This document shows, piece by piece, positions 22,469 through 64,000 of a stretch of 64,000 bases of DNA. Origin of the DNA: an archaeon (GTDB lineage: Archaea > Nanobdellota > Nanobdellia > SCGC-AAA011-G17 > PNOQ01); assembly GCA_018671245.1 (NCBI GenBank), contig JABHIB010000002.1:1-64000 (forward strand), read 5' to 3'. The position numbers and the translations under genes were made by a program. The stretch's first letter is position 1. Every line of letters starts with the position of its first letter. Under the pieces are notes generated by a model. It was not told the origin of the DNA. It saw only the letters and a list, made by a program, of their open reading frames with translations, and made no database searches.

Positions 22469-24615
22469 AACAAGGATTTTATTTAGTGGGGTTTCTTTTT
22501 TTTATTAATCTTTCAATAGCCTCTTTTATTTTACTTTTATTAAATAATTTTACTTTGCTTAAAATCGATTTCTTATTAAATTCTAAATGGTTTTTTTCTA
22601 TTGGAACTTTTTCGTTATTACTCTCTTTATTATTGAAGTATAATTTTAATTTATTAAAACATAAAAAAAATAGATTTATAGAAAGTATTTTTTTAAGTTC
22701 CTCATATTATTTTTTATCTTTTTTAGTTATAATCATAATTAATCAATTTTTAAAATTAAATTTTTTAACTGGAAGGTTATTTTACTTCATAATTTTTGCA
22801 ATCTTTTTTGGATTTTTGACTTTTTATAAAAATAGGGATTATGTTGAAAAAAAAATTGAAGATGAACAGATTTCAAAAAAGAATAAGAAATTCTTTTATG
22901 CTTTTGGATTTATTTTATTTCTTTTTATTCAAATATATAAAATATATTCTACGGGGATCGGAACAGATGAGGGAAATTTCCTATACACCACAAAATTGCT
23001 TTTTGAAGAAAATTCATTATTTTTAGATTTCTGGTCTAGAGAGAGCCTTTCACTATTTTTCCTCGTTCCTTATTTTAAACTCATCTCCATTTCAATAATT
23101 AATCTGAGATATTTTGTTTTAATTTTACATATAATCTTCTTTTATTTATCTTATTTAATAGTAGAAAAAATTTATCCCAATAAAAAATGGAATCCTGGAA
23201 TTCTGACTTTTATATTAATTGTTTTTACATTTAATGGGCCGCTTGACTTTTTCCAAGGAATTTTTTACCAATTTTCTTACCTCTTTTATTCGTTAATCAC
23301 TTTTCTGATGCTTTTTTATTGGAAACATTCTTCTTACAAAAAATTATTTTTAATTGGGTTTATTATTGGGGCTGGAACACTCTTTTATAAAGGAGTTGAA
23401 TTATTTATAGTAATAATACCCCTATTTATTTTAATGGGGAACTCGCTAGATAAGAGGAGGGCCTATCTTGCCTTTTTTTGTTCATTTTTGATTCCATTAA
23501 TTTTTTATTGGTTATACTATTCTATTTTCACAAATATTTTTCACATATATTCAATTATTTTAAAGGATGTGCTGCAAAAGTTTTTCATTATTGCTTTTAG
23601 TTATTTGGCATTATTTTATCTCAGTTCATTTACTAAAATAAAAAAAATTATTACCGAAATTAATTTGGTGATTATTTCAAATATATTCATTCTTTTAATA
23701 ATTAGTTATCTTCTTTTTCAAGACTATCAGTTATTTTTTAACAGTTTTTATTCTGGAGCGATTTTTCAATTTATGATAATTATTATTTGTTTGCAATCAT
23801 TAAATCTTGCAATCTTGAAAAATAATATCTTCTTAAAAATAATTTATCTCTTCATGAATCTTGGTATTTTAATATTTGGATTTGGAAGTAGGGGATTTTT
23901 TACAAATATTCCATTAAATTATCACATAATAATTTTTATTGCATTCTTAATATATACCTTATACCTTTTTATTCAAGGTTTTCAATTAAAATCTTCAAAT
24001 TCTCAAATCAATATTCTTAAAATAGTAATCTTTGTTAATTTATTTTTTGCCATTTCACTAATTGGAGGATATTTGATGCCAACAAGATTTCAGTCTATTT
24101 TAGGAATATTTCAAATTTTAATTTTTGGATCAATTTTCATAACTAAGAAAAAACATATCCTTCTTTTCTTTATTTTATTCTCTTTATTTTTTTCGTTTTT
24201 CTCTTCAATTAATTTGTCTAATGATCTTACATATTATGATCGGCAAACATTTCAAGAAACTGTAAATTACTTAAATTCTAAACCTAATGTGGATATCTTT
24301 TCTGCAGATACCTCTATTTTATCTGAGATAGGCCATAATTCAATAATTTTATTCCATTCTCCCTTCCATTTCAGAGAGGAAAAAGATATTTATTTCTATG
24401 AAGGAATTGAAAAAAAATATTTTAATAAAGATATTTCTCTTTCAAAAAAAGAAATATTGTCCAAATTAAAATCTGAAAAACCAGAGATTATTTTTGGATC
24501 CTGGAGGGCTACATTTAGGTTATTTGAAGATATTGAATGGAGGGAATTTTTAGAAGAGAATTATCAAGAAGAAAAAAAGATTGGAAGAATAACAATTTAT
24601 AGACTTATTTCTTAA
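22465..24615 (+). CDS. Large multi-TM glycosyltransferase-like protein
   Basis: GIGTDEGNFLYTTKLLFEE motif, >10 hydrophobic segments; overlaps the previous gene. Confidence 0.65.
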   Translation: MKQGFYLVGFLFFINLSIASFILLLLNNFTLLKIDFLLNSKWFFSIGTFSLLLSLLLKYNFNLLKHKKNRFIESIFLSSSYYFLSFLVIIIINQFLKLNFLTGRLFYFIIFAIFFGFLTFYKNRDYVEKKIEDEQISKKNKKFFYAFGFILFLFIQIYKIYSTGIGTDEGNFLYTTKLLFEENSLFLDFWSRESLSLFFLVPYFKLISISIINLRYFVLILHIIFFYLSYLIVEKIYPNKKWNPGILTFILIVFTFNGPLDFFQGIFYQFSYLFYSLITFLMLFYWKHSSYKKLFLIGFIIGAGTLFYKGVELFIVIIPLFILMGNSLDKRRAYLAFFCSFLIPLIFYWLYYSIFTNIFHIYSIILKDVLQKFFIIAFSYLALFYLSSFTKIKKIITEINLVIISNIFILLIISYLLFQDYQLFFNSFYSGAIFQFMIIIICLQSLNLAILKNNIFLKIIYLFMNLGILIFGFGSRGFFTNIPLNYHIIIFIAFLIYTLYLFIQGFQLKSSNSQINILKIVIFVNLFFAISLIGGYLMPTRFQSILGIFQILIFGSIFITKKKHILLFFILFSLFFSFFSSINLSNDLTYYDRQTFQETVNYLNSKPNVDIFSADTSILSEIGHNSIILFHSPFHFREEKDIYFYEGIEKKYFNKDISLSKKEILSKLKSEKPEIIFGSWRATFRLFEDIEWREFLEENYQEEKKIGRITIYRLIS

Positions 24616-25522
24616 TCTTTAAATAAATGTACCCTATTATCCCTAAAATTATTGAAGGGATTAATATTAATAAATGATAAAATAAAATTTTTGGTAAAAT
24701 TTTATCATAAGTGAATCCAAATAAAACTAAAAAATAGGTCCAACCTGCCTCAAAGATTCCAAAATTTCCAATTGTTTGGATTGGAAAAAGTCCAACTAAA
24801 AGAAGAGTTAAAGAAATAAATACTATTTTAATAAAAGATAAATCAATTTCTAAAAGAATGAATACTATATATGTTAAAAATATTCTTGATAACCAATAAA
24901 TAAAAGAGAAAATGATTATTATTAAGAGTGTTTTTTTAGAAAGATCCCTAAAAGAGCCTATTCCCTTTTCTAAGAAATTAATTATTCTTTTCATTTTATT
25001 GTTTTTGAATTTTGTTCTTATTTTAATAACTGCCCAACATAATATAAAAAATATGAGAAGGGAGATTGTAAAAAGAATCGAAATTTTCCCAATGAGATTA
25101 TTTTGGTTTTTTATCCCAATAAAAAAACTTGAAACTAAAAATAGAGTATAAACTACTAGATAATCAATAAATCTTAAACCCATTAATCCAACTGAGGTTT
25201 TTGAATAGGGCATTTTGAAATATTTTCTAAATCCTTGAATATATGAGAATTCTCCTGTCCTAAGGGGAAGTATACTTAACATCAAATTTGAGAAAGATAA
25301 TAAACAAAATAATTTTGAACAAATTTTTATAGAGTAGATAAGTGAATATCTTATAGTATTTATTAATTTAATTATCATGAACATTAATAATGAAATAAAT
25401 AATATTAAACTATTTTTTTCACTAAATAAATCAAGAAGGTTATAATTAATTTCTTTAAATAAACAAAATAAAATTCCAAAAGTCAGGATGACTGAAATAA
25501 CTAATTTTAATATTTTTTTCAT
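24605..25522 (-). CDS. UPF0104/AglD-type lysylphosphatidylglycerol synthase TM family protein
   Basis: LPLRTGEFSY..., TIGNFGIFEAGW motifs, multi-TM. Confidence 0.75.
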   Translation of the reverse strand: MKKILKLVISVILTFGILFCLFKEINYNLLDLFSEKNSLILFISLLMFMIIKLINTIRYSLIYSIKICSKLFCLLSFSNLMLSILPLRTGEFSYIQGFRKYFKMPYSKTSVGLMGLRFIDYLVVYTLFLVSSFFIGIKNQNNLIGKISILFTISLLIFFILCWAVIKIRTKFKNNKMKRIINFLEKGIGSFRDLSKKTLLIIIIFSFIYWLSRIFLTYIVFILLEIDLSFIKIVFISLTLLLVGLFPIQTIGNFGIFEAGWTYFLVLFGFTYDKILPKILFYHLLILIPSIILGIIGYIYLKIKK

Positions 25523-26556
25523 TTTTCTACATTCTCCCTATTAAAGTTTTTAAACCAATATTCTATTTCTTCATTTGAAACTTTTTTCGACAATTGAATT
25601 TTAATTCTCTTAATTAACATTCTTGGGATTAAAAATATAAACGAAAAGTGTGCCTTAATTAAAACCTCTATCAATCCGGCAAATCCTATATTTCCTCTTA
25701 ATTTTTTTATAGAAGAATTATTTCCTTTCTTTGCGTATTCAATCTTTAATTTAACATTTGAAAAAAGAAATTTTGCAAATTTCCAAGAAGAGAAATTCTT
25801 GAATGCTGTTAAAAGAGTATTTCTTTCTGAATAATATGCTTTAAATTTAGATGCAGATCCTCCTGTTATGGAGTGTAAATGGATCAACTTTGCATTTACA
25901 GACAAATAAGATTTCCACCCCAATAATCTCCCCCTAAATCCTAAATCCAAATCTTCAGCATAAGCAAAATATCTTTCATCAAAAAATTCTTTATCTCTCC
26001 TATAAATCTCTTCAAGCATCTCTCTCTTGTATAATGGTGCAACTCCTCCCGGGACAAAAATTTCTTTGTCGGAATTCAAATTAACCTCCTTGTCTTTTTT
26101 TCCAAAACCAATTGATATCCCTCCTGGCTTATTTAGCTGTAAGGGGCCCTCCAAGCTTAGGCCCGCATTTTGTATTTCCCCTGTTTTAAAATATGCTTTA
26201 CTGGAAACCATTCCAATTTTTTTACCTCTGTCTGCGGTTTTGATTAACTCTTTTAACCAATTTTTATCAACAATGGTATCATTATTTAAGCAAACTATAT
26301 ATTTCGTTTTATTATCTTTTAATGATTTTTTTATGCCCTCGTTCATCCCTTTCGCGAATCCTTTATTTTTATCTAATTGGAAAATGTTTGATTTTGGAAA
26401 GTTCTTTTTAACATGGGCTATAGAATTATCTGTAGATCCATTATCTATAAAATAAACTTCAAAATTTTTATATGTTTGATTATAAACTGAATTTAAACAA
26501 TCTTTAATGAGGCCCTTTCCATTCCAATTAAGGATTATTATTGAAGCTTTTTTCAT
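25519..26556 (-). CDS. GT2 glycosyltransferase (rhamnosyltransferase-like)
   Basis: KKASIIILNWNGKGLIKDCLNSVYNQTYKNFEVYFIDNGSTD; start trimmed from track start 26619, which lies in duplicated remnant DNA. Confidence 0.85.
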   Translation of the reverse strand: MKKASIIILNWNGKGLIKDCLNSVYNQTYKNFEVYFIDNGSTDNSIAHVKKNFPKSNIFQLDKNKGFAKGMNEGIKKSLKDNKTKYIVCLNNDTIVDKNWLKELIKTADRGKKIGMVSSKAYFKTGEIQNAGLSLEGPLQLNKPGGISIGFGKKDKEVNLNSDKEIFVPGGVAPLYKREMLEEIYRRDKEFFDERYFAYAEDLDLGFRGRLLGWKSYLSVNAKLIHLHSITGGSASKFKAYYSERNTLLTAFKNFSSWKFAKFLFSNVKLKIEYAKKGNNSSIKKLRGNIGFAGLIEVLIKAHFSFIFLIPRMLIKRIKIQLSKKVSNEEIEYWFKNFNRENVEK

Positions 26557-26566
26557 CTCATCTCCT

Positions 26567-26824
26567 TCAAATATATATTTCTTGCATTTTTTTACTTTTG
26601 TTGTCAGTAGCTTGACCATAATTTTTGTTTATATCTATTATTTTTACTTTTGAAAGTTTTTTAAGTTCTTTTAGAGAATTATCGGATGAACCATCATTAA
26701 CATATATAATTTTATAGGTTCCTGAAAGTTGATTCATTACTTGTTTAATTTCTTTATCGAGAATTTTCATATTATCTTCCCCTTCATATATTGGAATGCC
26801 AACTGAATATTTTACCATTTTCAT
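26567..26824 (-). pseudogene. Truncated GT2 remnant, partial copy of the 27921-28862 gene
   Basis: First 72 aa nearly match the full gene, then unrelated residues and stop. Confidence 0.85.
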
Positions 26825-26831
26825 TTTATTT
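26605..26831. repeat. 227-bp direct repeat, copy A
   Basis: Near-identical ungapped copy of 28643-28869 at constant 2038-bp offset. Confidence 0.85.
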
Positions 26832-27924
26832 CATTTAAATATTTTTTAACAATTTTTTCATATCTAAAATTTAATTTATATCTTTTCCTTGAGTTTTTCA
26901 TAAATTTGGTTAATAATTTTTCATTTTCTAATAATATTTTTAATTTATTTTTAATTTCTTCAATATTTTCTCTTTTAACTAAAAATCCAACGTCTTTTGA
27001 TACTGTTTCCTTGCAGGCAGTAATATCTGAGGACAAGATTGCACAACCGCAACTCATGCCTTCAATAAAAACAATTCCTTGACTTTCTCTTTCGGATAAA
27101 AGTGAAAAAATTTTTGATTTGTTTAATAGATTTGAAAATTTTTGGCCTTTATTATTTATCCATCCAGTAAAAATAATATTTTTATTTTTATTTGCAATTT
27201 TTAATAATTCTTTCTTATATGGCCCATCTCCTACGATGTAGAGTTTCCAATTTTTTGGATCTAATTCATTAAATCCTTGAATTAAATATTGATAACCCTT
27301 TCTTTTTAAAAGCCTCCCAGAACTTAAAATGATATTTTCTTTTTTGATTGATCTGTTCAAATAATCCTCCGATCCATTTGGAATGGTTATAATATTATAT
27401 CTCCCAATTTCTTTTTTTATTAGATTTGCTAAGTAACCAGAAGGAGTTGTTAAAAATTTTGATTCCTTGCAAATATTATTTAATATTGGGCCAGTGAATT
27501 TATGAAGTATTTTAAACCTATCTGGGTTATAATTTGGCACATCACTTCCATGGGCAGTTATAATATAGGGGATTTTAAATTTCTTTTTAACCCATAAAGC
27601 AACAATTCCAGTTGGAATAATAAAGTGGCAGTGACAAATATCATACCTATTATCTTTCAAATGTTTTTTTAAGAATTTTTTAGCAGAGATTATGTAAGTT
27701 AATTGTTCCCAAGGATGACATATCTCTTTTTTAGAACGTAAACATTTGACTCTATGGATATTAATCCCTTCTTTTACTTCAAAATGGGGTAAATCTTTGT
27801 AACCCATTGTCACAACATCTACCTTATGACCTAATTTTACATATCCTTTAGAAATTTCATATGAAACGGGTGAAGCTCCTCCTCCAAGGGGAGGAAATTC
27901 ATAATTTAAAACCAATATTCTCAT
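26821..27924 (-). CDS. GT4 family glycosyltransferase
   Basis: EFPPLGGGASPV, ITAHGSDV, ILSSGRLLKRKGYQYLI, ESQGIVFIEGMSCG. Confidence 0.9.
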   Translation of the reverse strand: MRILVLNYEFPPLGGGASPVSYEISKGYVKLGHKVDVVTMGYKDLPHFEVKEGINIHRVKCLRSKKEICHPWEQLTYIISAKKFLKKHLKDNRYDICHCHFIIPTGIVALWVKKKFKIPYIITAHGSDVPNYNPDRFKILHKFTGPILNNICKESKFLTTPSGYLANLIKKEIGRYNIITIPNGSEDYLNRSIKKENIILSSGRLLKRKGYQYLIQGFNELDPKNWKLYIVGDGPYKKELLKIANKNKNIIFTGWINNKGQKFSNLLNKSKIFSLLSERESQGIVFIEGMSCGCAILSSDITACKETVSKDVGFLVKRENIEEIKNKLKILLENEKLLTKFMKNSRKRYKLNFRYEKIVKKYLNEIK

Positions 27925-28862
27925 TTCCCTATAACTTCCCTGATATAATATCTTTTTTCATAAGGTGAACTATTTAACTTTATTTTTATCAATATATTTA
28001 GTATCATTCCAAATCCAAAAGATAATAGTGCCATCATCATAAAGAAAAATCCTAAGAAGAACCATCCATTTCTATTTAAACTTAAACCTTCAAATATTCT
28101 TTGATAAAGTGACCATAAGAAAGATAGTCCTCCAACAAAAAAGGCTCCAATACTAAAATATCCGAATATATGCAGGGGCCGTTGAGAATATTTTTGCATA
28201 AACCAAATATACACCAAATCAATTAAACCTCTAACTGCTTTAGAATAACCATATTTAGTTTCCCCATATTTTCTAGCATGATGATTGACCACTTCTTCAC
28301 CTATCTTAAATCCTTTCCATTTTAATAACGCTAGAATATATCTATGCATCTCTCCTTGCAAATCTAAAGCTTTTATTGCCGTTCTTCTATAAACTCTCAG
28401 AGTACATCCAGTATCATGAACTTGATCTTTAATTATTATTTTTCTAAGAAGTCTTCCGATTCTAGTTAGTACTTTAATTCCAGGGGCATCTTTTCTTTTC
28501 TTTCTCCACCCCGCAACTACATCCAATTTATCTTTTTCTAATCTTTTTAGTAATTTTGGGATATCTTTTGGATCGTTTTGTAAGTCTCCATCTAAAGAAA
28601 TAACAATTTCACCAGTACTTGATTTAAATCCTGCGTCCATTGCAGTAGCTTGACCATAATTTTTGTTCAGATCTATTGTTTTCACTTTTGAAAGTTTCTT
28701 AAGTTCTTTTAGAGAATTATCAGATGAACCATCATTAACATATATAATTTCATATGTTCCTGAAAGTTGATTCATTACTTGTTTAATTTCTTTATCGAGA
28801 ATTTTTATATTATCTTCCTCTTCATATATTGGGATGACAACTGAATATTTTACCATTTTCAT
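27921..28862 (-). CDS. GT2 (DPM1/GtrB-like) polyprenyl-phosphate glycosyltransferase with 2 C-terminal TMs
   Basis: YSVVIPIYEEEDNIKIL, YVNDGSSDNSL, SLDGDLQNDPKDIPKL. Confidence 0.9.
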   Translation of the reverse strand: MKMVKYSVVIPIYEEEDNIKILDKEIKQVMNQLSGTYEIIYVNDGSSDNSLKELKKLSKVKTIDLNKNYGQATAMDAGFKSSTGEIVISLDGDLQNDPKDIPKLLKRLEKDKLDVVAGWRKKRKDAPGIKVLTRIGRLLRKIIIKDQVHDTGCTLRVYRRTAIKALDLQGEMHRYILALLKWKGFKIGEEVVNHHARKYGETKYGYSKAVRGLIDLVYIWFMQKYSQRPLHIFGYFSIGAFFVGGLSFLWSLYQRIFEGLSLNRNGWFFLGFFFMMMALLSFGFGMILNILIKIKLNSSPYEKRYYIREVIGK

Positions 28863-28869
28863 TTTATTT
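28643..28869. repeat. 227-bp direct repeat, copy B
   Basis: See copy A. Confidence 0.85.
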
Positions 28870-29002
28870 TAACCCTCTCAAGTATTTAAGCTTTAATAAA
28901 TAATTGAAAACCAAACCTTTATAAACCTTTCTAAACTCCTCACTTCCGAGTAATAACAAAATAAAAAACAATTAGATTTATATATAGAAAACAAACTACA
29001 AA

Positions 29003-37189: not shown

Positions 37190-37432
37190 ATGGCAGAAAA
37201 ATTCGATATATCAAAACATATACTTGTACCTAAACATACAAAGTTAAATGATGACGAGAAAAAAGAGATTCTTGAGCAATTAAATATTGATGAAACAAAA
37301 TTGCCTAAGATATTCTTAAAAGATCCAGCAGTAAAGAATCTAGATGTTGTTCCTGGGGATATTATAAAAATTATTAGAAAAAGTCCTACTAATTTAGAAA
37401 GTATTTTTTATAGGGTGGTAATAAATGGTTAA
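37190..37432 (+). CDS. rpoH: DNA-directed RNA polymerase subunit H
   Basis: FDISKHILVPKHTKLNDDEKKEIL...LPKIFLKDPAVK; start after tRNA-Lys, not 37115. Confidence 0.93.
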   Translation: MAEKFDISKHILVPKHTKLNDDEKKEILEQLNIDETKLPKIFLKDPAVKNLDVVPGDIIKIIRKSPTNLESIFYRVVING

Positions 37433-38909
37433 AAATTATAAAAAACTGATTGGAAATTATTTTGATAAACATTCATTTGTTGAATCAAACATTAAGTCTT
37501 TTGATTATTTTCTAGATAAAAGATTACAAGCTCTTGTTGATGATGTTGGAGAGATAGTCCCAACTATTATTCCTCAAGAAGTTGAGAATTTTATGATTAA
37601 ACTTGGTAAAATCTCTATTGGTAAACCTGAGATTACCGAGGCTGATGGTTCAAAAAGAGATATTTATCCTACTGAAACTAGGTTAAGAAAACTTACTTAC
37701 GCTGCACCAATAACTTTGAAAGTTAGCTCAGTTATTAATGGTGTGACAAATGAATCTTTTGATGCATATCTTGGAAAAATGCCAATTATGATTAAGTCAA
37801 AACACTGCCACTTATATGGCCTTAAGAAAGAAGAACTTATTGAGAAAGGAGAGGATTCAAATGATCGTGGTGGATATTTTATTTTAAATGGTAATGAAAG
37901 AGTTTTAATTATGGTTGAAGATCTTGCTTCAAATAAATTCTTTGTTAAGAAAACTAAAATAGGTCCAAGTAAGTTTGTTGGAAAATTATTTTCTCAAAAA
38001 AGTAGTTATCGTATTCCTCACACTATTGAGCAAATGAAAGATGGAATATTGTATATCAGTTTTACTAGATTCAAGAGAGTTCCTATAATACCTTTGATCA
38101 AAGCACTTGGTGTTGTTAGCGATCAAGAAATAATGGAGTCTATCTCTAAAGATGATTCATTTGATGATGTATTGATGAATTTATATGATTCTATCGATAT
38201 TAAATCTCAAGAAGAAGCTCTAGATTTTGTTGCTAAAAAAGTAGGAATTACTCAAAAAGAAGTTAGAGTTGAAAGAGTGAGAGAGTATCTTGATAAATAT
38301 TTATTACCTCATGTTGGTGTTGATTCAAAAGACAGAAAACTAAAAGCTTACAATCTTTGTAAATTGATAAAGCGATTCTTATTAGTTTCTAAGGGGAAGA
38401 TGAATTCTCCTGATCAAGACCATTACATGAACAAGAGATTAAAACTTAGTGGAGATTTATTAGAAGATCTTTTCAGAATTAATGTTCGTTCTTTGGTTCA
38501 AGATATATTATATAATTTCCAAAGACTGGTTAAGAGGGGGAAGTTTACTTCATTGAAGATAATTATTCGTGAACAGTTATTGAGTTCTAGAATTCATAGT
38601 GCTATGGCAACTGGTTCATGGGTAGGTGGAAGATCAGGTATAAGTCAGAATATGCAAAGAACAAATGGTATTGACACTGTTTCACATTTACAAAGAGTTG
38701 TTAGTTTGTTAACTGCTACTCAAGAAAACTTCGATGCTAGGGCTTTGCATAGTACTCATTGGGGAAGATTGTGTCCTGTTGAGACTCCTGAAGGTTCACC
38801 TATTGGTTTAAGGAAAAATTTGTCTATGCTTGCAAATATTACTAGAATTGAACCAAACGAAGCAAAATTGAAAGAGAAATTGAAGGAGGTAGGATTGAAA
38901 TCACTTTAA
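37425..38909 (+). CDS. rpoB2: DNA-directed RNA polymerase subunit B''
   Basis: GGYFILNGNERVLI...HSTHWGRLCPVETPEGSPIGLRKNLS; ends before B'. Confidence 0.96.
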   Translation: MVKNYKKLIGNYFDKHSFVESNIKSFDYFLDKRLQALVDDVGEIVPTIIPQEVENFMIKLGKISIGKPEITEADGSKRDIYPTETRLRKLTYAAPITLKVSSVINGVTNESFDAYLGKMPIMIKSKHCHLYGLKKEELIEKGEDSNDRGGYFILNGNERVLIMVEDLASNKFFVKKTKIGPSKFVGKLFSQKSSYRIPHTIEQMKDGILYISFTRFKRVPIIPLIKALGVVSDQEIMESISKDDSFDDVLMNLYDSIDIKSQEEALDFVAKKVGITQKEVRVERVREYLDKYLLPHVGVDSKDRKLKAYNLCKLIKRFLLVSKGKMNSPDQDHYMNKRLKLSGDLLEDLFRINVRSLVQDILYNFQRLVKRGKFTSLKIIIREQLLSSRIHSAMATGSWVGGRSGISQNMQRTNGIDTVSHLQRVVSLLTATQENFDARALHSTHWGRLCPVETPEGSPIGLRKNLSMLANITRIEPNEAKLKEKLKEVGLKSL

Positions 38910-38910
38910 A

Positions 38911-40713
38911 ATGGCAGATGTATATTTAGATGAAATATTTGTAGGATTTGTTGATGATCATAATAAATTCATTACAGAAGTTAAACAGTTAAGAAGAGAG
39001 AGTAAGGTTTCTAAAGTATTAAACTTACATTATGACGAGGGTGCTAATGAAATCATAATTGAAACAACTAGAGGTAGACTTAGAAGGCCTTTGATAATTG
39101 TTGAAAATGGTAAACCTAAATTAAATAATGATCATGTTGAAGATCTTGATTCTGGAAAGATATCTTGGAAAGATTTAATTGATGATGGGGTAATCGAATA
39201 TGTTGATGCTTGTGAAGAAGAAGATTGTTTTGTTGCTATCCAAGAAGAGGATTTAACTACAAAACACACACATCTTGAGATAAGTCCTATAACTATTCTT
39301 GGTGTTTGTACATCTCTTGTACCTTATTCAAATTTTGGAAGTTCATCAAGATTGATAAGAGGTTCTAAGATTCAGAAACAATCAATGGGATTATATTCTA
39401 CTAATTTTTTAAATAGACTTGATACTGATGCTAATTTGCTTCACTATCCTCAGAAACCTATTGTAAAAACATTTATGCATGATGTTTTTAATTATGATAA
39501 AAATCCTTCTGGACAGAATTTTGTTATTGCTGTTATGAGTTATGACGGATATAACATGGAGGATGCACTTATTGTTAATAAAGGAAGTATTGATAGAGGT
39601 TTAGCTAGATCTACTTTCTTCAAACCTTATAACTTAGAAGAATTAAGATATTCAGGTGGTTTAAGAGATGAAGTTGGTATCCCTGATAAGGAAGTTAAAG
39701 GTTACAAATCAGAAGAAGATTATAGATTCCTTGAATTAGATGGTATAGCTCATACTGGTGCTAAAGTTGATGCAGATGATATTATTATCGGTAGATCAAG
39801 TCCTCCTAGATTCCTTTCAGGATTAGAAGAATTTAGTGTTGCTGCAAATGTTAGAAGGGAGAGTTCTATTAGTCTTGGAGAAGGAGCAAACGGTATTGTT
39901 GATATGACTCTTTTAACAGAGAGTGGTTCAGGAAACAGGATGATCCAAACTAGATTGAGACAACCTAAAACTCCTGAAATTGGTGATAAATTTGCATCCA
40001 GACATGGACAGAAAGGTATTATTGGTATGATGTATCCTCATGAGGACATGCCGTTTACTGAGTCTGGAATTATTCCTGATATAATTTTCTCTCCACACAG
40101 TCTTCCTGGAAGAATGACAGTTTCTCACATGATTGAGATTTTGGCTGGAAAAGTTGGAGCACTAAATGGTGAGTATATTGATGCTACTAGTTTCGATACA
40201 CCTTCAGAGGATAGACTTAGGACAACTCTGTCTGAGCTTGGATTTAGAGAGAACGGTACAGAGGTAATGTATAACGGTTTGACAGGTCAAAGATTCAAGG
40301 CGAGAATATTCGTTGGAAATATATATTATTTAAGACTTAAACATTTAGCAGACAAGAAATTACATGCTAGAGCTGCAGGTAGAATTCAATTATTAACAAG
40401 ACAACCTGTTGAAGGAAGAGCTATGGGTGGAGGATTGAGACTTGGAGAGATGGAGAAAGATTGTTTAGTTGCACATGGTGCATCTCTATTATTGAAAGAA
40501 AGGTTCGATTCAGATAAGACTAAGCTTTATGTGTGTGAAGATTGTGAAATGGTTGCTATTTTTGACAACTATAGAAATAAATCTTATTGTCCGCGTTGTG
40601 GAAATGCCGCAAAGGTAAGTCCTGTTGAGATGAGTTATGCATTCAAACTTTTATTGGATGAGTTAAAATCTATGGGAATTTTCCCTAGTTTGAAATTGGG
40701 GGATAAATTTTGA
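38911..40713 (+). CDS. rpoB1: DNA-directed RNA polymerase subunit B'
   Basis: SYDGYNMEDALIVNKGSIDRGLARSTFF; GDKFASRHGQKGIIG. Confidence 0.96.
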   Translation: MADVYLDEIFVGFVDDHNKFITEVKQLRRESKVSKVLNLHYDEGANEIIIETTRGRLRRPLIIVENGKPKLNNDHVEDLDSGKISWKDLIDDGVIEYVDACEEEDCFVAIQEEDLTTKHTHLEISPITILGVCTSLVPYSNFGSSSRLIRGSKIQKQSMGLYSTNFLNRLDTDANLLHYPQKPIVKTFMHDVFNYDKNPSGQNFVIAVMSYDGYNMEDALIVNKGSIDRGLARSTFFKPYNLEELRYSGGLRDEVGIPDKEVKGYKSEEDYRFLELDGIAHTGAKVDADDIIIGRSSPPRFLSGLEEFSVAANVRRESSISLGEGANGIVDMTLLTESGSGNRMIQTRLRQPKTPEIGDKFASRHGQKGIIGMMYPHEDMPFTESGIIPDIIFSPHSLPGRMTVSHMIEILAGKVGALNGEYIDATSFDTPSEDRLRTTLSELGFRENGTEVMYNGLTGQRFKARIFVGNIYYLRLKHLADKKLHARAAGRIQLLTRQPVEGRAMGGGLRLGEMEKDCLVAHGASLLLKERFDSDKTKLYVCEDCEMVAIFDNYRNKSYCPRCGNAAKVSPVEMSYAFKLLLDELKSMGIFPSLKLGDKF

Positions 40714-56542: not shown

Positions 56543-56953
56543 TTAGAGCAGAACTGCCAGCATTACAATAGCGCCGAATATAATACCTGCGAAAACTTGT
56601 AGTGTTGTATGTCCTTCTCTTTTTAATTGTTCTACCAGAGTCTCGTTAGGATATAATTTTTTGAATATTTTCTTTTGTTTTTCAACTTCTAATCTAACTC
56701 CTAAGGAATCTCTTATTACTATTGCACTGAAAGCTATAGTTACTAAAGTTAACATAGAAAGTTTTTCTGTCAATAACATCGCCGTACTTAGTGCCGATAC
56801 GAATGAGGAGTGTGAACTAGGCATTCCACCATCAACAAATAGTTGAGATAGGGATAGTTTTCTTGTTTTAATTATTTCTGTAATTGTTTTTATTGTTTGA
56901 GGGATAAATGTTGCTAAAATTAATCCTATGAATATCTTGTAAAATATTTCCAT
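56543..56953 (-). CDS. Divergent PAP2 family protein (DUF212)
   Basis: GGMPSSHSSFVSALSTA; RDSLGVRLEVEKQ; GHTTLQVFAG. Confidence 0.85.
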   Translation of the reverse strand: MEIFYKIFIGLILATFIPQTIKTITEIIKTRKLSLSQLFVDGGMPSSHSSFVSALSTAMLLTEKLSMLTLVTIAFSAIVIRDSLGVRLEVEKQKKIFKKLYPNETLVEQLKREGHTTLQVFAGIIFGAIVMLAVLL

Positions 56954-57020
56954 ATTGATAAATTAATAATTCGATTTATAAGTTTATTCGTGATTATTAT
57001 TTTTTTGACTGTTTTCGTAG

Positions 57021-57030
57021 AATTTATAAG
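57021..57030 (+). promoter_or_regulatory. TATA-like element of the 57052-62390 operon
   Basis: aatttataag about 25 nt before ATG 57052. Confidence 0.5.
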
Positions 57031-57051
57031 ATTATCTTACTTTCTTAATTT

Positions 57052-58050
57052 ATGGAAAAACTTCAAACTCAAGTGTATAATGATCTGATGGAGGATCCAA
57101 TATCTAAATTATTAATTGATTATTATGTGAATGTTCAAGTAAATGGAGTTAATAGTTCGGAACTTCCTAGATTTAGTGAAATATCTTCTAAAAATAATAA
57201 AAGTTGTGGGATATCTATTAATAATATATTTATGTTAAGATCTATTAAGGCTATGAGAGATATAATTGGAGGAGATACAATCTCTTATCAAGATGTTTGT
57301 TATCCTTATGAGGATTTGCCTTATGATTCTACTTGGACTTCTCTCTCCAGACTAGAAGAATGGTTTATGTCTGATCAGGGAACTTATGAACAAGGAGTTT
57401 CTGGAAAAGACGGAATTTTGTTTGCATTTGATTCTTGGATAAATGGAAAGGATGAGCTTATTGAAGTTAATGATAGTGCAAGAATTTATCATAATAAACT
57501 TGTAGGGGGAGAACCTAGGTCTGAATTTATGACACTAATGTTGAATTTATTCAGATATGATATGAAATCAACTTTATCTGAATTAGTTCATTCAAAGGGT
57601 GTCGGATCAGGGACTACTTCACAAGTATCGGAAATGGCCTTTGGTGCAATGTTAGCTGGTCCAACTATAAATGCTAGAACTTATAGATTAAGGAATACTA
57701 AGATTTCTCAAACTCTTGATGTTGGACATTTCATGGTTTATAATGTTGGTCTCACAGAAAAGCTAGTCGATGAGATGGTGTCTGAAAATTTTGATTTTAA
57801 TGCTATTTATGATCCAAAAAATAGAGTTGTTGATATTGTAGAAGATTGGAAAATTTGTTTTGATAAAGTTAGAAACCACTGTAATTCATTATATAGATCT
57901 CCTCGAGATTTGTTAGATTTATCAAGAACTTTGATTTATGCAGAACAAAAAGATGGTGAAAAAATTATAAGATGTAATTTCAAACCAGTTTCGCCAGAAT
58001 ATGATGAAAATATTACTTCTTATCTAGGAGTTACTCAGAATGGGAAATAA
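57052..58050 (+). CDS. Protein of unknown function, first gene of the operon
   Basis: Long intact ORF, overlaps next gene by 11 nt; no recognised motif. Confidence 0.7.
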   Translation: MEKLQTQVYNDLMEDPISKLLIDYYVNVQVNGVNSSELPRFSEISSKNNKSCGISINNIFMLRSIKAMRDIIGGDTISYQDVCYPYEDLPYDSTWTSLSRLEEWFMSDQGTYEQGVSGKDGILFAFDSWINGKDELIEVNDSARIYHNKLVGGEPRSEFMTLMLNLFRYDMKSTLSELVHSKGVGSGTTSQVSEMAFGAMLAGPTINARTYRLRNTKISQTLDVGHFMVYNVGLTEKLVDEMVSENFDFNAIYDPKNRVVDIVEDWKICFDKVRNHCNSLYRSPRDLLDLSRTLIYAEQKDGEKIIRCNFKPVSPEYDENITSYLGVTQNGK

Positions 58051-59158
58051 TAGAATATTAAATACATTAGATGATGCAAAAAGACTAAGTGCTGAATATA
58101 ATATACCTCTAACTGATATTATTTTGATAGGATTAAATATCGAAGGGGCTTATGATTCATCAATTGTTTCAGATAGGATGAGATTCAATATGGTCCCAGA
58201 TAATAGTGGAGGAAATGAGTTTTATTTCGCATTAACTAATACTAAAGATTCGAGATGGAAGATTAATGGTGGTGAACTTTCATTTAATGGTGAAAGGATA
58301 GGAAAAGTAGGAAATACTGAAGAAGATACTTGCGATAATACTTATTGGAGAAGATTTATTTCTTTAGGTGGAAAAAATTGTGGAACTGAATTGACTATAA
58401 ATTCAAATTCTAGAAGTTTTTGTTCTGGTTGTGAATTCTGTGGCACATATAATCTTAGTCCAGAGGATCAAGATGAAAAAGATTTATCTAATCCTGATAA
58501 ATTAAGAAGAAAATTGGATAATATCTTGTTAGAGAATGATATTGTAGATTTATCTAACTTGCATGAAATTGGAGTCGTAACTGGATGTTTTCCTAATGAA
58601 AATTTAACCTTACAACATCTTAATATGTTACATGATGTTTTGAGAGGAGATTATGATTTTTCTGGCGAATTGAAATATGTTGGTTCACAGATACAGTCTA
58701 GGGAGGCTTTAGAAAATTTAGTATCTCACGGACCGACTGGAATCTCTCAAACTGTTGAATGTTTTGAAAGGAGAGATATATTATTGCAACCAAAAAAACA
58801 ATTGTCTTTAGATTTTGCAAGGGAAATACTTGATAATGCTAAAGATTTAGGAATTAATACAACTTTATTATATATTATGGGACTTGATAAGTTATCTACT
58901 TTTGAAAATGAGATGAAATTATTTGTTCCATATCTAACTAAAATGCCAGTTATTAATACCTTGCAAGAATATGTTGAGGGGCAGAGTGATTTAAGAGTTC
59001 CAGAAGCAAGATCTATGGAATATTATTTAAAAGCTAGAAAGATAATGGAAGAAATCTGTGAACCTTTAGGTTTTAAACCTAATGTGTGGGAAAATTATAG
59101 AGGGCTATGGTTTACTGAATATTCTAAGGAGGGGTTAGAAAATGTCATCAGAATTTAA
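58040..59158 (+). CDS. Radical-SAM-like protein with CX2CX2C motif
   Basis: RSFCSGCEFCGTY; EIGVVTGCFPNENLTLQHLNML; alternating alpha/beta TIM-barrel-like sequence. Confidence 0.6.
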   Translation: MGNNRILNTLDDAKRLSAEYNIPLTDIILIGLNIEGAYDSSIVSDRMRFNMVPDNSGGNEFYFALTNTKDSRWKINGGELSFNGERIGKVGNTEEDTCDNTYWRRFISLGGKNCGTELTINSNSRSFCSGCEFCGTYNLSPEDQDEKDLSNPDKLRRKLDNILLENDIVDLSNLHEIGVVTGCFPNENLTLQHLNMLHDVLRGDYDFSGELKYVGSQIQSREALENLVSHGPTGISQTVECFERRDILLQPKKQLSLDFAREILDNAKDLGINTTLLYIMGLDKLSTFENEMKLFVPYLTKMPVINTLQEYVEGQSDLRVPEARSMEYYLKARKIMEEICEPLGFKPNVWENYRGLWFTEYSKEGLENVIRI

Positions 59159-60356
59159 TAGTTTATCAATTTCTGGCCATGATCCTTCTGATGAAGTCCA
59201 TAAAAGTCTTAAGAAAAATGGAGTGAATTTTGCAACAGGATTACCTTGTGGAATATTAAGATATTTTATGCATAATCTTACAAATGATTCAGAGATATTA
59301 CATATGCCAGGATTAAATGAACCTGAAACAATTGGTATTGCAACAGGAGCATGGCTTGCTGGAAAAACTCCTGCAATTTATATGCAAAATTCTGGAATGT
59401 TGAAATCTGTGAATGACATTGCAGGATTAATGATGGCTAGTAAGGCACCTTCAATAATTCTTGCAACTTATAGAGGATGTTCTGGAGATAATGCTACTCA
59501 ACATCAGATCACTGGTAGCATTACAAAACCTACTCTTGATGCATTAGGGTTGGAGTATCATGAATTAAGCGATGACAATATTTCAGGTACGATTGATGAT
59601 TGTTTCAATTTTATGGATGAAAGTGGATTTCCTGCAGTGTTATTAGTTAAAAGAGGGTGGTCTAATACAGAGGTTTTGAAAGATGTTTCTTTATATGCTG
59701 AAGAATTGAGAGATGAACTTAATTATCCTGTTGATCCTACTCTTGCAGTAGATAATGCCCTTTCAAAAATTATAGATTATAGAGATGGTAATATCCTTGA
59801 TAGGGATAGATCTCTTGATTCAATGTTTGAAGTTATAGGGAGAGATTCTGCAGTTTTTTCGTCTACTGGAATTATGAGTAGGTATATTTTTGAGAATTTT
59901 GATAGTCCGAATCAATTTTATAATTGTGGTGGTTTTGGTCAGACCTCAGTTATAGGGTCAGGATTTGCAGCGTCTAGAAAAGATGTGAATACTATTGCTA
60001 TTGATGGAGATTCAAGTTTACTTACTAATTTTGGCGCATTAGTCACTAATGGTAATCTGGGAACTTCAAATTTTACTCACATTGTTGTCGATAATGCAGC
60101 ATATGGTTCATGTTCAGAAGAAAAATCATTATCATTATCTGCCAATATCCCTCTGGTTGCTGCTATTCAAGATTATAAGAATGTGTTTCTTGTAGATTCT
60201 GCAGTTGGCATTCAAAAATCAATAGAATTGAGTTCGAACTTTAATGGACCAAATTTAATATATCTTAATATTAAGTTGGGTGGACCTAGGAATCCAAAAC
60301 GACCGTTAGATATGGACATTACTGCGAGGAGATTTAAAGAGTATTTCTCACAATAG
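59142..60356 (+). CDS. TPP-dependent decarboxylase, phosphonopyruvate/sulfopyruvate-decarboxylase-like
   Basis: GLPCGILR...GLNEPETIGIATGAWLAGKTPAIYMQNSGMLKSVNDIAGL; QHQITGSIT; IDGDSSLLTNFGALVTNGNLGTSNFTHIVVDNAAYGSC. Confidence 0.85.
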   Translation: MSSEFNSLSISGHDPSDEVHKSLKKNGVNFATGLPCGILRYFMHNLTNDSEILHMPGLNEPETIGIATGAWLAGKTPAIYMQNSGMLKSVNDIAGLMMASKAPSIILATYRGCSGDNATQHQITGSITKPTLDALGLEYHELSDDNISGTIDDCFNFMDESGFPAVLLVKRGWSNTEVLKDVSLYAEELRDELNYPVDPTLAVDNALSKIIDYRDGNILDRDRSLDSMFEVIGRDSAVFSSTGIMSRYIFENFDSPNQFYNCGGFGQTSVIGSGFAASRKDVNTIAIDGDSSLLTNFGALVTNGNLGTSNFTHIVVDNAAYGSCSEEKSLSLSANIPLVAAIQDYKNVFLVDSAVGIQKSIELSSNFNGPNLIYLNIKLGGPRNPKRPLDMDITARRFKEYFSQ

Positions 60357-60363
60357 GGTTTTA

Positions 60364-61107
60364 TTGAAAATGGAAACACTACAAAAAAATTATTCTGCAA
60401 TAATCTCTGATGCTGGAGATATTTTATTTAGTACTGTTAAAGGCCTTAAGAGAAAACAGGAAGTTATAGAGTATTTATCACATAGGTTTGATTCGAAAAT
60501 TCCTATTGATGAATCAGTAAAAAATTTTAAATATTATAATGACCTTGCTCAAACTAGTTTTGAGTTGTGGGAATCAATATTCTTATTTTCTAAATATGAA
60601 CTTGGAGAACAGATTGGATATGGAGATTGTAAACAACTTGAAGATTATATTGGTGCTCCAAATATAAAATTATTTGATGGAGTTGTAGATACCTTAGAAA
60701 AATTAGACTATCTAGGTTTGCCTTTTATTATTTTGACTAATGGTCCTAAATCTGGCAGATTCTATGATAGTTGTTTAGATGAAGTAATAAAAAGTGAATT
60801 AATTGAAAAAAAAGAGTTTGATAAATGGTCTTATAATTATGGTGATTATATTTTTGCCCAGATATCTTCAAAGGATCTTGGTGTGAGAAAGCCTGATGAA
60901 ATTATGTTTCAGACAGCATTTAATCTGGTTGATTCAACTGATTCTCCGAGAAATATTCTTTATGTTGCACACACAAAATCCGAGATTAATGGTGCCTTAA
61001 ATTTTGGATTTGATGTTGTAAATTGTGGCCCCGAAAACCTGGATGTCTCTCGAGATAATTTATATGAAATAAATAGATTTTCTGAATTATTAGGAATAAT
61101 CACATGA
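60364..61107 (+). CDS. HAD-superfamily hydrolase-like protein
   Basis: IISDAGDILFST, LTNGPKSG, GVRKPDEIMFQTAF. Confidence 0.75.
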   Translation: MKMETLQKNYSAIISDAGDILFSTVKGLKRKQEVIEYLSHRFDSKIPIDESVKNFKYYNDLAQTSFELWESIFLFSKYELGEQIGYGDCKQLEDYIGAPNIKLFDGVVDTLEKLDYLGLPFIILTNGPKSGRFYDSCLDEVIKSELIEKKEFDKWSYNYGDYIFAQISSKDLGVRKPDEIMFQTAFNLVDSTDSPRNILYVAHTKSEINGALNFGFDVVNCGPENLDVSRDNLYEINRFSELLGIIT

Positions 61108-62390
61108 AAGTTGCATTAATTAACCCTAAACAGATGGATACAATAAATGGGAGATATCCTCATTTGGGTATTGGTAGTTTAGCTTCAATTTTGGAGAAAA
61201 ATAATATTGAGGTCAAAATATGGGATATGCCAGTTTCCGAACTTAATGAAGAAGATATAAGTAATATGTTACAAGATTATGATCCCGAGATTGTTGGAAT
61301 TACTAGTAATTCTTTTACATTTCTTGAAGCAAAAAAGCTTGCAGGCCTTTCAAAATCAATCAATCCGGATGTTTTAACGATTGTTGGAGGGCCACACATA
61401 TCTATTTATCCTGTTGAAACTTTAGTAAATAATGAATTTGATATCGCAATACCCGGAGAGGCAGAGATTTCATTCCTTAATGTAGTTCAAACTCTACAAA
61501 ACAATAAAAAATTAGAAGATATTAGAGGAGTAGTTTATAGAAACGGATCACAAATAATTAAGAATTCTCCAGAAAAATTGATAAGTAATTTAGATAATTT
61601 ACCTCTTCCTGCAAGGCATCTTATGCCTAATGATAGTTATTTTTCTCCAATTGCTCACAATGATAATTATAGTATTGTTACTACAGTTAGAGGTTGTCCT
61701 TTCAAATGTTTTTATTGTTCTTCGAATAATGGCAAATCATTTAGAATGAGAAGCCCATCAAATGTTGTTGATGAAATTGAGTTTTTGATAAATGAGTACG
61801 ATACAGAATATATTCAGTTTTATGATGATTCTTTCTCTTTTAATAAAAATAGAGTGAGAGAAATATGTCGTCAAATTAAAGAGAGAGATTTAGAATTTAA
61901 ATGGGATGTTAGAACTAGAGTTGATATGGTCGATGCCAAGATATTAGAGGATATGGAGGATGCAGGATGTAAAAGAATACGATATGGTATGGAATCTGGA
62001 GATCAAAGAATTTTAGATATTATGAGAAAGGGAATTACTCTTGAACAAATTAATAATGCAGTAGATTTAACAAAAGAAGTTGGAGGCATGGAGATTCTTG
62101 CGTATTTTATGATTGGAACTCCGGGAGAGACTCTTGAATCAATAGATAAAACGATAAGTTTGGCACAAAATCTTTCTGTTGACCATGTTCGTTTCAATAT
62201 CACTACTGCTTATCCTGGGACTGATATGTATAAGTTTGGTTTAGAAAGTGGTTATTTTGATCAGGATTATTGGTTGCAGTATGCTAGAGGCGAATTAGAC
62301 TATATTCCTGATTTGATTTTCGAAACCGAAGAATATAATCGAAATGATCTTGAAAAAATAATTAAACATGCAAAAGAAGTTTGTTCATAG
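61104..62390 (+). CDS. B12-binding-domain radical SAM protein
   Basis: N-terminal LINP...GIGSLASILEKNNIEV cobalamin-binding-type domain; RGCPFKCFYCSS CX3CX2C; RYGMESGDQRIL. Confidence 0.93.
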   Translation: MKVALINPKQMDTINGRYPHLGIGSLASILEKNNIEVKIWDMPVSELNEEDISNMLQDYDPEIVGITSNSFTFLEAKKLAGLSKSINPDVLTIVGGPHISIYPVETLVNNEFDIAIPGEAEISFLNVVQTLQNNKKLEDIRGVVYRNGSQIIKNSPEKLISNLDNLPLPARHLMPNDSYFSPIAHNDNYSIVTTVRGCPFKCFYCSSNNGKSFRMRSPSNVVDEIEFLINEYDTEYIQFYDDSFSFNKNRVREICRQIKERDLEFKWDVRTRVDMVDAKILEDMEDAGCKRIRYGMESGDQRILDIMRKGITLEQINNAVDLTKEVGGMEILAYFMIGTPGETLESIDKTISLAQNLSVDHVRFNITTAYPGTDMYKFGLESGYFDQDYWLQYARGELDYIPDLIFETEEYNRNDLEKIIKHAKEVCS

Positions 62391-62491
62391 ATAGTTTTAA
62401 ATATATTTAAAATTAATTCTATTATGCCTTAATTAATAGAAGGAAATATAGAGCATAGTAGTAAGTTTGTAAATTAAAAGGAGGTTTGAAT

Positions 62492-62698
62492 ATGATAGAA
62501 GCGATATTATTTTATTCATGTTTGGTTGATAGTTTGATTGCTAATGTATTAGCTTGGACTAATCAAAAATGGTATAAAAAAAGATATAAAAAAATGTCGA
62601 AGTATCTTCCTATGACTAAAAGTTGGTGTTTTGTGTATCTAGCTTTTGTATTATGGGTTGGATTTTCGTTACTAAGGCTTAATATTTTGCCTTGGTAG
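62492..62698 (+). CDS. Small membrane protein
   Basis: SD-like ggaggt before ATG; two hydrophobic segments. Confidence 0.5.
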   Translation: MIEAILFYSCLVDSLIANVLAWTNQKWYKKRYKKMSKYLPMTKSWCFVYLAFVLWVGFSLLRLNILPW

Positions 62699-62754
62699 TC
62701 CCATTTTTTTGAAATAGTAAGCTTTTTATAGGCATATTTTGTGATTTTATTAAA

Positions 62755-63000
62755 ATGTTATATGAAAAATTATTCCTATATAGTGAAGATGGGCCAAAAA
62801 TTGGTATTAATAGAGATTTGCCAAGATTGAAGTTTGATCATCATTTCAAAAATGTTGAGATTGAACCTATAAAACCTATAGTGATTGAACCGTTTAAGGC
62901 ACCTATTGAGTATGAGCCTGTAAATCCTATAGAACTAGAACCTTCCAAGCCTTTTGAAGTGGAACCTGTTATTCCAGAGTATCAACCTTTCAAAGAATAG
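62755..63000 (+). CDS. Small Pro/Glu-repeat protein
   Basis: IEPIKPIVIEPFKAPIEYEPVNPIELEPSKPFEVEP; TATA-like sequence upstream. Confidence 0.5.
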   Translation: MLYEKLFLYSEDGPKIGINRDLPRLKFDHHFKNVEIEPIKPIVIEPFKAPIEYEPVNPIELEPSKPFEVEPVIPEYQPFKE

Positions 63001-64000
63001 TTAGAAATTTTTTTTATCTTTTCCCAAGGAAGTTCCTGATTTGAAAAGTGTCCGTAAGCTGCAGTTTTTTTGTAGATTGGTTTTTTTAGATCGAATTGAG
63101 AGATTATTTCTGCAGGTTTTAATCTAAAATTTTCCTTAATTAATTCTATCAATTCATCCTCAGATAGTTCTGATGTTCCGAAAGAGTCTACGAATATACT
63201 AACTGGTTCTGCAACTCCTATTGCATAGCTTATTCCTACTTCACATTTTTTACATATTTTATTTGCTACCAAACTTTTTGCTATGTGTCTTGTTGCGTAT
63301 GCTCCACTCCGATCTACTTTTGAAGGGTCTTTTCCCGAAAATGCTCCGCCTCCGTGCCTACCTATTCCTCCATAAGTGTCTACTATTATTTTTCTTCCTG
63401 TGACTCCTGCGTCACCTTCTGGTCCACCTATAATGAATTTTCCTGTAGGATTTACTAAGAATTTTGTGTTTTCATCTATATACTTTTTGCAAACAGGTTT
63501 TATTATATGTTCAATTACGTCTTCTTTTAGAGCTTCATATTCAATTTCTTCATCGTGTTGAGTTGATATGATTATTGTGTCTACTCTTTTTGGTTTGCTA
63601 TGATCGTATTCTACAGAAACTTGAGCTTTTCCGTCAGGTCTTAAGTAGGGAATTGTATTGTTTTTTCTTAGCTCTGATAGTTTCTTTGTTAGTTTGTGTG
63701 CTAAATATATTGATAGGGGCATTAATTCTTCTGTTTCGTCCGTTGCATAACCATACATCATCCCTTGATCTCCAGCTCCCTGTTCTTTGTGAAGTCCTTC
63801 TCCTTCAGTCACACCTTGTGAGATGTCTGGGCTTTGTTGTTCTATTATGGTTGTTATTTTACAACTATCTGCATCTATTCCGTATTTTAATTTTGTGTAA
63901 CCTATATCTCTTAGTGTAGTTCTAGCAATGTCTTCTATGTTTAGATTTGCTTTAGTAGTTAGTTCTCCAGCTATTACAAGATTGTTGCTTTTTACTAGGC
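62982..64000 (-). CDS. metK: S-adenosylmethionine synthetase, bacterial-type, N-terminus outside window
   Basis: SPDISQGVTEGEGLHKEQGAGDQGMMYGYATDET; GRKIIVDTYGGIGRHGGGAFSGKDPSKVDRSGAYATRHIAK; frame continues to the window end. Confidence 0.95.
   Translation of the reverse strand, partial: LVKSNNLVIAGELTTKANLNIEDIARTTLRDIGYTKLKYGIDADSCKITTIIEQQSPDISQGVTEGEGLHKEQGAGDQGMMYGYATDETEELMPLSIYLAHKLTKKLSELRKNNTIPYLRPDGKAQVSVEYDHSKPKRVDTIIISTQHDEEIEYEALKEDVIEHIIKPVCKKYIDENTKFLVNPTGKFIIGGPEGDAGVTGRKIIVDTYGGIGRHGGGAFSGKDPSKVDRSGAYATRHIAKSLVANKICKKCEVGISYAIGVAEPVSIFVDSFGTSELSEDELIELIKENFRLKPAEIISQFDLKKPIYKKTAAYGHFSNQELPWEKIKKISNYSLKG

Follow-up and report, generated by a model that had tools for sequence, protein, structure and literature searches.

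A five-gene operon in a DPANN genome

We describe here a candidate biosynthetic operon of five plus-strand genes lying on a 64,000-nucleotide (nt) stretch of archaeal DNA (hereafter the window), which is part of contig C11 of a 616-kb assembly that is 93% complete and carries recognisable archaeal genes for elongation factor 2 (EF-2), S8e and TFIIB. Inspection of the open reading frames (ORFs) of the window placed gene 1, which encodes an orphan protein of 332 amino acids (aa) for which no relative was found, at 57052–58050. Gene 2 (58040–59158, 372 aa) encodes a radical S-adenosylmethionine (SAM) enzyme with a noncanonical CxxCxxC motif, as indicated by alignments, a structural model and Foldseek. 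Gene 3 (59142–60356, 404 aa) was assigned by profiles and a tree to the thiamine diphosphate (ThDP) enzymes of the phosphonopyruvate decarboxylase (Ppd) and sulfopyruvate decarboxylase (ComDE) stock, with a divergent active-site loop. Gene 4 (60364–61107, 247 aa), an atypical haloacid dehalogenase (HAD) recognised by a weak profile match and by its motifs, starts at a TTG codon at 60364 or, alternatively, at an ATG at 60370. Gene 5 (61104–62390, 428 aa) encodes, according to profile matches, an HpnJ/AprD4-like radical SAM enzyme with a B12-binding domain. Genes 2, 3 and 4 constitute the core of the operon.

The genes overlap by 11 nt (genes 1 and 2), 17 nt (genes 2 and 3) and 4 nt (genes 4 and 5), and genes 3 and 4 are separated by 7 nt (13 nt from the ATG). 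The compact same-strand arrangement reported in a preliminary description of this DNA was thus confirmed, as were, by family profiles, the classes it had assigned to gene 3 (ThDP enzyme), gene 4 (HAD-like) and gene 5 (B12-binding radical SAM). We also agree that the operon looks biosynthetic, and no description of it was found. A TATA-like element, TTTATAAG (57023–57030, plus strand), was recognised by its position ∼26 nt upstream of the gene 1 ATG, a distance at which TATA boxes are expected in archaea; the operon mRNA is likely to have a leaderless start. As the octamer occurs 4 times in the window compared to ∼11 occurrences expected by chance, the motif by itself is weak evidence.

Gene 2 is a divergent radical SAM enzyme by fold

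The second radical SAM-type protein of the preliminary description corresponds to gene 2, which proved to be a very divergent member, scoring 16.5 bits against PF04055 (Radical_SAM; Pfam cut-off 29.5). Its DPANN (Diapherotrites, Parvarchaeota, Aenigmarchaeota, Nanoarchaeota, Nanohaloarchaeota) relatives are encoded in genomes G197 and G203 (44–50% identity to the window protein), G396, G439, G529, G343 and G538, to which G033 adds a remote relative. Full-length relatives with ∼30% identity were detected by tblastn on actinobacterial plasmids, and an alignment-driven scan of GTDB genomes yielded 53 distinct loci, all actinobacterial. In the gene 2 tree, a 100/100 branch splits 6 DPANN rows from 21 actinobacterial rows. 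The remote G033 relative (L033:1378–2484), a very divergent CxxCxxC radical SAM protein, adjoins P-loop kinase-like and histidine-phosphatase-like genes, without a ThDP enzyme.

The gene 2 cysteines are arranged as C128-x2-C131-x2-C134. This CxxCxxC motif, which takes the form CxGCx(F/W)C, is invariant in alignments of 12 and 31 sequences and replaces the CxxxCxxC motif. The family alignment also displays a TGCF motif, a T-x-E...R...K set and a C-terminal R...E...W...R set. An AlphaFold model built from 31 sequences (pLDDT 80, pTM 0.84) shows a beta-rich N-terminal domain of ∼110 aa preceding the barrel; the cluster cysteines occupy a low-confidence loop that follows the first barrel strand, with TGCF located past the next one. 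When this model was compared to the PDB with Foldseek, the top matches were nearly all radical SAM enzymes, the best being lipoyl synthase (E 6.9e-7), viperin-like enzymes, biotin synthase and MqnE. Lipoyl synthase, viperin and biotin synthase, with TM-scores of only ∼0.34–0.45 on the query, share with gene 2 a partial TIM barrel and a cluster loop following the first barrel strand; however, they carry CxxxCxxC, whereas gene 2 has CxxCxxC and the extra N-terminal domain. By its fold, then, gene 2 belongs to the radical SAM enzymes; its cluster motif is noncanonical. A literature search combining radical SAM and CX2CX2C returned a match on a ferredoxin motif and another on the flagellin methylase FliB.

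Genes 2, 3 and 4 recur as a unit in other DPANN genomes

The order radical SAM–ThDP enzyme–HAD is common to the window, G197, G529, G343 and G538, the latter four spanning three further DPANN families. The radical SAM and ThDP enzyme genes overlap by 17 nt at all five loci (computed for G529, G343 and G538, deduced from coordinates for G197). This order and overlap, repeated in four genomes, are beyond what chance would produce. In each of these four genomes the core is adjoined by a gene for a SAM methyltransferase of 215–218 aa (60–89% mutual identity). Neither gene 1 nor gene 5 was seen at the other DPANN core loci, so that the co-conserved unit is genes 2-3-4: the proposal that the five genes travel together held for these three, which keep their order in the four genomes, and failed for genes 1 and 5.

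Gene 2 is rare and its distribution patchy: 6 genuine matches (own genome included) and 1 weak match were obtained in 378 genomes of the class, and 4 in 226 genomes of another order, while 8/8 further genomes searched within the family lack the gene. This patchy presence over families suggests horizontal spread of the operon core.

Three further loci are organised differently. In G203, the radical SAM protein and the alpha and beta parts of the ThDP enzyme are encoded by separate ORFs, the beta part running into a diadenylate cyclase (DAC)-like domain; after it comes a protein of 201 aa, transglutaminase-like on visual inspection and without a Pfam hit, which has a relative in G538 (33% identity). 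In G396 and G439, a DAC-like protein is encoded upstream of the radical SAM gene on very short contigs. These DisA_N/DAC-like domains (L032:2011–2895 in G203, L095:3191–3643 in G439 and L093:1612–2100 in G396) all score below the Pfam cut-off, the G439 copy being recognised through its similarity to that of G396; the RHR motif is retained in G203, and GYH is found in G396 and G439. Directly 3' of the G439 radical SAM gene lie thymidylate-kinase-like and adenosine-deaminase genes (L095:270–2024), a hint of nucleotide chemistry. A DAC match on contig C5 of G000 was discarded, being a fragment of a separate protein outside the operon, which we take to be a DacZ-type cyclase.

Gene 3 is probably a decarboxylase-derived enzyme of another specificity

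Gene 3 exceeds the cut-off of PF02775, and its nearest families, TIGR03297 and ComD/ComE, are all matched below their cut-offs. Against TIGR03297 (cut-off 312.5 bits) the window protein scores 200.1 and its G197 counterpart 261.9, compared to 413.7 and 446.1 for genuine AepY proteins; against TIGR03845/TIGR03846 (ComD/ComE) gene 3 scores 90/89 bits, for cut-offs of 148/221.5. The PYR-domain Glu (EPE) and the GD(S/A)S...DN motif of ThDP enzymes are conserved. However, in the loop that follows the Mg/ThDP Asn the DPANN clade has SC(S/T)EExS, where Ppd has STGGQ(P)T/STGGQxT, and the GSMG of Ppd becomes G(S/G/A)FG, except in G203. A 100/100 branch of the ThDP enzyme tree sets the 6 DPANN sequences off from 12 Ppd-like ones, among them AepY proteins encoded at annotated phosphonate loci and Ppd homologues from the same archaeal order. 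The loop following the Mg/ThDP Asn borders the active site of ThDP decarboxylases, as established for Glu477 of yeast pyruvate decarboxylase. With two acidic residues added there, the DPANN enzymes would be less likely to act on a doubly charged phosphonate or sulfonate.

The closest solved relative of gene 3 is RhiEF, a phosphonopyruvate decarboxylase (PMC12141560). Gene 3 resembles AepY/Fom2 and RhiEF in its two-domain ThDP fold, the EPE Glu, a conserved QH and a comparable length, but AepY and Fom2 differ from it in STGGQxT, in GSMG and in having a phosphoenolpyruvate (PEP) mutase partner. ComD/ComE belong to the same superfamily as the core ThDP enzyme, and G203 even has the alpha and beta parts apart; nevertheless, gene 3 falls below their cut-offs and no ComA accompanies it over cut-off. 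Acetolactate synthase had been named as another class to which the enzyme might belong; gene 3 is not one, yet it lies outside the sampled Ppd. Taken together, these data indicate that gene 3 derives from phosphonopyruvate/sulfopyruvate decarboxylase stock and probably has another specificity.

These results bear on the C-P or C-S product put forward in the preliminary description. Fosfomycin biosynthesis pairs the phosphonopyruvate decarboxylase Fom2 with Fom3, and the operon likewise encodes a cobalamin-type radical SAM enzyme alongside one that resembles Ppd; it differs from the fosfomycin pathway in its additional noncanonical radical SAM enzyme and in having no PEP mutase. By analogy, gene 3 would decarboxylate phosphonopyruvate or sulfopyruvate that comes from outside or from an unrecognised enzyme, gene 5 would methylate the product and gene 4 would act as a phosphonatase-like HAD. 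The best family matches of gene 3 (Ppd and ComD/E) and its kinship with RhiEF speak for such a pathway. Against it, gene 3 misses every equivalog cut-off, has lost STGGQ and occupies its own branch. A search of the window genome and others for the two precursor enzymes also ended without a match over cut-off: PEP mutase (PF13714) was not found in four genomes including G000, with a search control that was positive in 11/14 and a window assembly that is 93% complete, and ComA was not found over cut-off in six genomes. A C-P or C-S product is thus unsupported, and we consider a phosphonate or sulfonate pathway unlikely.

Gene 4 departs from the HAD phosphatase signature

The HAD profile match of gene 4 is below threshold. 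Its motif I reads DAGD, in which the nucleophile Asp is retained and the Asp at +2 is replaced by Gly, and motif IV, GDxxxD in HAD phosphatases, is (A/S)HxxxE in 5/5 core HAD sequences (AHxxxE in gene 4). The phosphatase signature, DxD in motif I with GDxxxD in motif IV, is therefore absent from gene 4, and with these motifs altered ordinary phosphatase activity is not to be assumed.

Genes 1 and 5, candidate partners seen only at the window locus

No match to gene 1 was found in Pfam, NCBIfam, PADLOC, the PDB, plasmids, phages, IMG/VR or related genomes, and its single-sequence AlphaFold model has a pLDDT of 33.5. PADLOC likewise left genes 2 to 4 unmatched, a search for viral relatives of genes 1 and 2 found none, and hhalign gave no match between gene 1 and DAC proteins. 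A match in G114 (E 0.0017) was rejected as chance, as it overlaps a phosphorylase-like frame. Gene 1 may represent a lineage-specific partner.

Gene 5 carries a B12-binding domain (PF02310; 1.5e-19, 70.4 bits) and a Radical_SAM domain (PF04055; 5e-24, 85.7 bits), both over cut-off, and the CxxxCxxC cluster motif in the form CPFKCFYC. It is nearest to HpnJ by family and to AprD4 by solved structure, and shares their B12-binding plus radical SAM architecture; however, it misses every equivalog cut-off (198.3 bits against HpnJ, cut-off 577.6) and its gene context differs. The enzymes that it resembles act on cyclitols and aminosugars.

An orphan protein alongside two radical SAM enzymes recalls systems that modify a peptide or protein, such as those of ribosomally synthesised and post-translationally modified peptides (RiPPs) or of cofactor maturation, in which gene 1 would be the substrate or scaffold of both enzymes; gene 5 bears a distant resemblance to radical SAM enzymes of RiPP pathways, ApyD (185 bits) among them. 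But gene 1, with its 332 aa, is no short precursor, features of RiPP recognition or of a leader were not observed, the gene is missing at other loci that retain the core, and a ThDP enzyme would be unexpected in such a system. We therefore regard this explanation as very unlikely.

Gene 2 relatives lie in conserved actinobacterial clusters

The actinobacterial relatives of gene 2 define a set of 59 loci (L019–L024 and L034–L086), whose hosts include Streptomyces, Nocardia, Actinoplanes and a Mycobacterium plasmid. The most frequent partners are an MR_MLE protein of the enolase superfamily with likeness to sugar-acid dehydratases (57 loci), a HAD (56), a methyltransferase (54) and a phosphoketolase (52). 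Two cluster types were distinguished, one with a GGDEF-like gene (20/59 loci) and the other with genes for PhyH and for Sua5-like and creatininase-like proteins; none of the 59 loci combines GGDEF with Sua5. No paper describing this gene set was found in the open-licence literature, and the cluster is conserved and apparently undescribed.

Like the archaeal operon, these clusters combine in one operon a full-length gene 2 homologue, a ThDP enzyme and a HAD, the latter with a DxG motif I wherever readable (38/58 matches) and a mostly retained motif IV. Unlike in the archaeal operon, the ThDP enzyme is a phosphoketolase, MR_MLE, PhyH and Sua5 genes are added, and genes 1 and 5 are missing. Of the trio that marks the actinobacterial clusters (radical SAM, MR_MLE and XFP), the archaeal operons have the radical SAM gene and neither of the others.

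The cyclase-like partners in both groups, DAC in DPANN and GGDEF in actinobacteria, raise the question of whether the core produces or alters a signal, inhibitor or antiviral compound derived from a nucleotide. The DAC-like domain fused to the ThDP beta part in G203 or encoded beside the radical SAM gene in G396 and G439, the GGDEF-like genes, the two nucleotide-related neighbours in G439 and the viperin-like structures among the gene 2 fold matches are consistent with such a role. However, no DAC or GGDEF domain is present in the window operon or in G197, G529, G343 and G538, every DAC match is below the Pfam cut-off, and gene 1 was unmatched to DAC, as were genes 1–4 in PADLOC. A nucleotide-linked system is thus unlikely.

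Genomic setting of the operon

Upstream of the operon, synteny with the sister genome G001 extends through EF-2. EF-2 is followed by elongation factor 1A (EF-1A) in G001, G005 and G008; in the window genome EF-1A lies on another contig, and the break (window 56543–64000) is filled by the operon, DUF212, MetK and an RHS-like gene. A copy of the RHS-like gene is located at the contig end, 66536, and others on contigs C2 and C5, so that recombination or an assembly break is possible. MetK, a bacterial-type S-adenosylmethionine synthetase (window 62982–64000; to 64127 on the contig), is convergent to the operon; it was rejected as an operon partner, being ordinary in the family and order (17/41 genomes). 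Elsewhere in the window are an AT-rich, probably acquired island (22000–28900; GC down to 0.23, reversed GC skew) with glycosyltransferase-like and membrane proteins, a lipoprotein-like protein with tandem 14-residue BspA/DUF285-like repeats (14917–16110), and an RNA polymerase B subunit encoded as two ORFs, rpoB''/rpoB' (37425–40713).

Discussion

We favour, as rather probable, the view that the operon contains a horizontally spread biosynthetic module in which a CxxCxxC radical SAM enzyme acts with a ThDP enzyme of Ppd/ComDE stock, likely of other specificity, and with an atypical HAD. The recurrence of the core and the presence of gene 2 relatives in conserved Streptomyces clusters indicate that the operon probably makes a small molecule. 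By means of a 5'-deoxyadenosyl radical, gene 2 would functionalise a small substrate that derives from a sugar or nucleotide and is probably phosphorylated; gene 3 would make or cleave a C-C bond beside a carbonyl, the most likely reaction being decarboxylation of a 2-oxo acid to an aldehyde; gene 4 would remove or handle phosphate; and a tailoring enzyme, the SAM methyltransferase at the four other loci and gene 5 here, would finish the product. With low confidence, the actinobacterial partner genes and the likeness of gene 5 to enzymes of cyclitols and aminosugars make us lean towards a phosphorylated sugar-like or nucleotide-like substrate.

Several points weigh against this module. Gene 2 scores below the Radical_SAM cut-off, and its radical SAM activity with a CxxCxxC cluster is one that we infer. 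In G396 and G439 the radical SAM gene stands without ThDP enzyme or HAD, on short contigs. Gene 4 lacks two catalytic signature positions and, judged from its motifs, may be no phosphatase. Finally, gene 2 is the one component with clear homology between archaeal and actinobacterial clusters: no close similarity was detected between the HADs (best E 0.11), and the ThDP enzymes belong to different families.

More tentatively, the two groups of clusters may possibly represent one cross-domain pathway built on a new radical SAM subclass (CxxCxxC, TGCF and its own N-terminal domain) and a ThDP enzyme, Ppd-derived in DPANN and a phosphoketolase in actinobacteria, with DAC or GGDEF partners at some loci. 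If so, the recruitment of DAC and GGDEF would suggest that the product or the control is linked to nucleotides.

The genomes of DPANN archaea are tiny and, to our knowledge, these organisms are not known for secondary metabolism. A patchily distributed, conserved operon that shares its radical SAM enzyme with dozens of Streptomyces-type clusters provides a concrete handle on a metabolite, and, the actinobacterial hosts being cultivable, the chemistry could be approached there first. If shown to be active, the CxxCxxC family would add to the range of cluster-binding motifs known for radical SAM enzymes.

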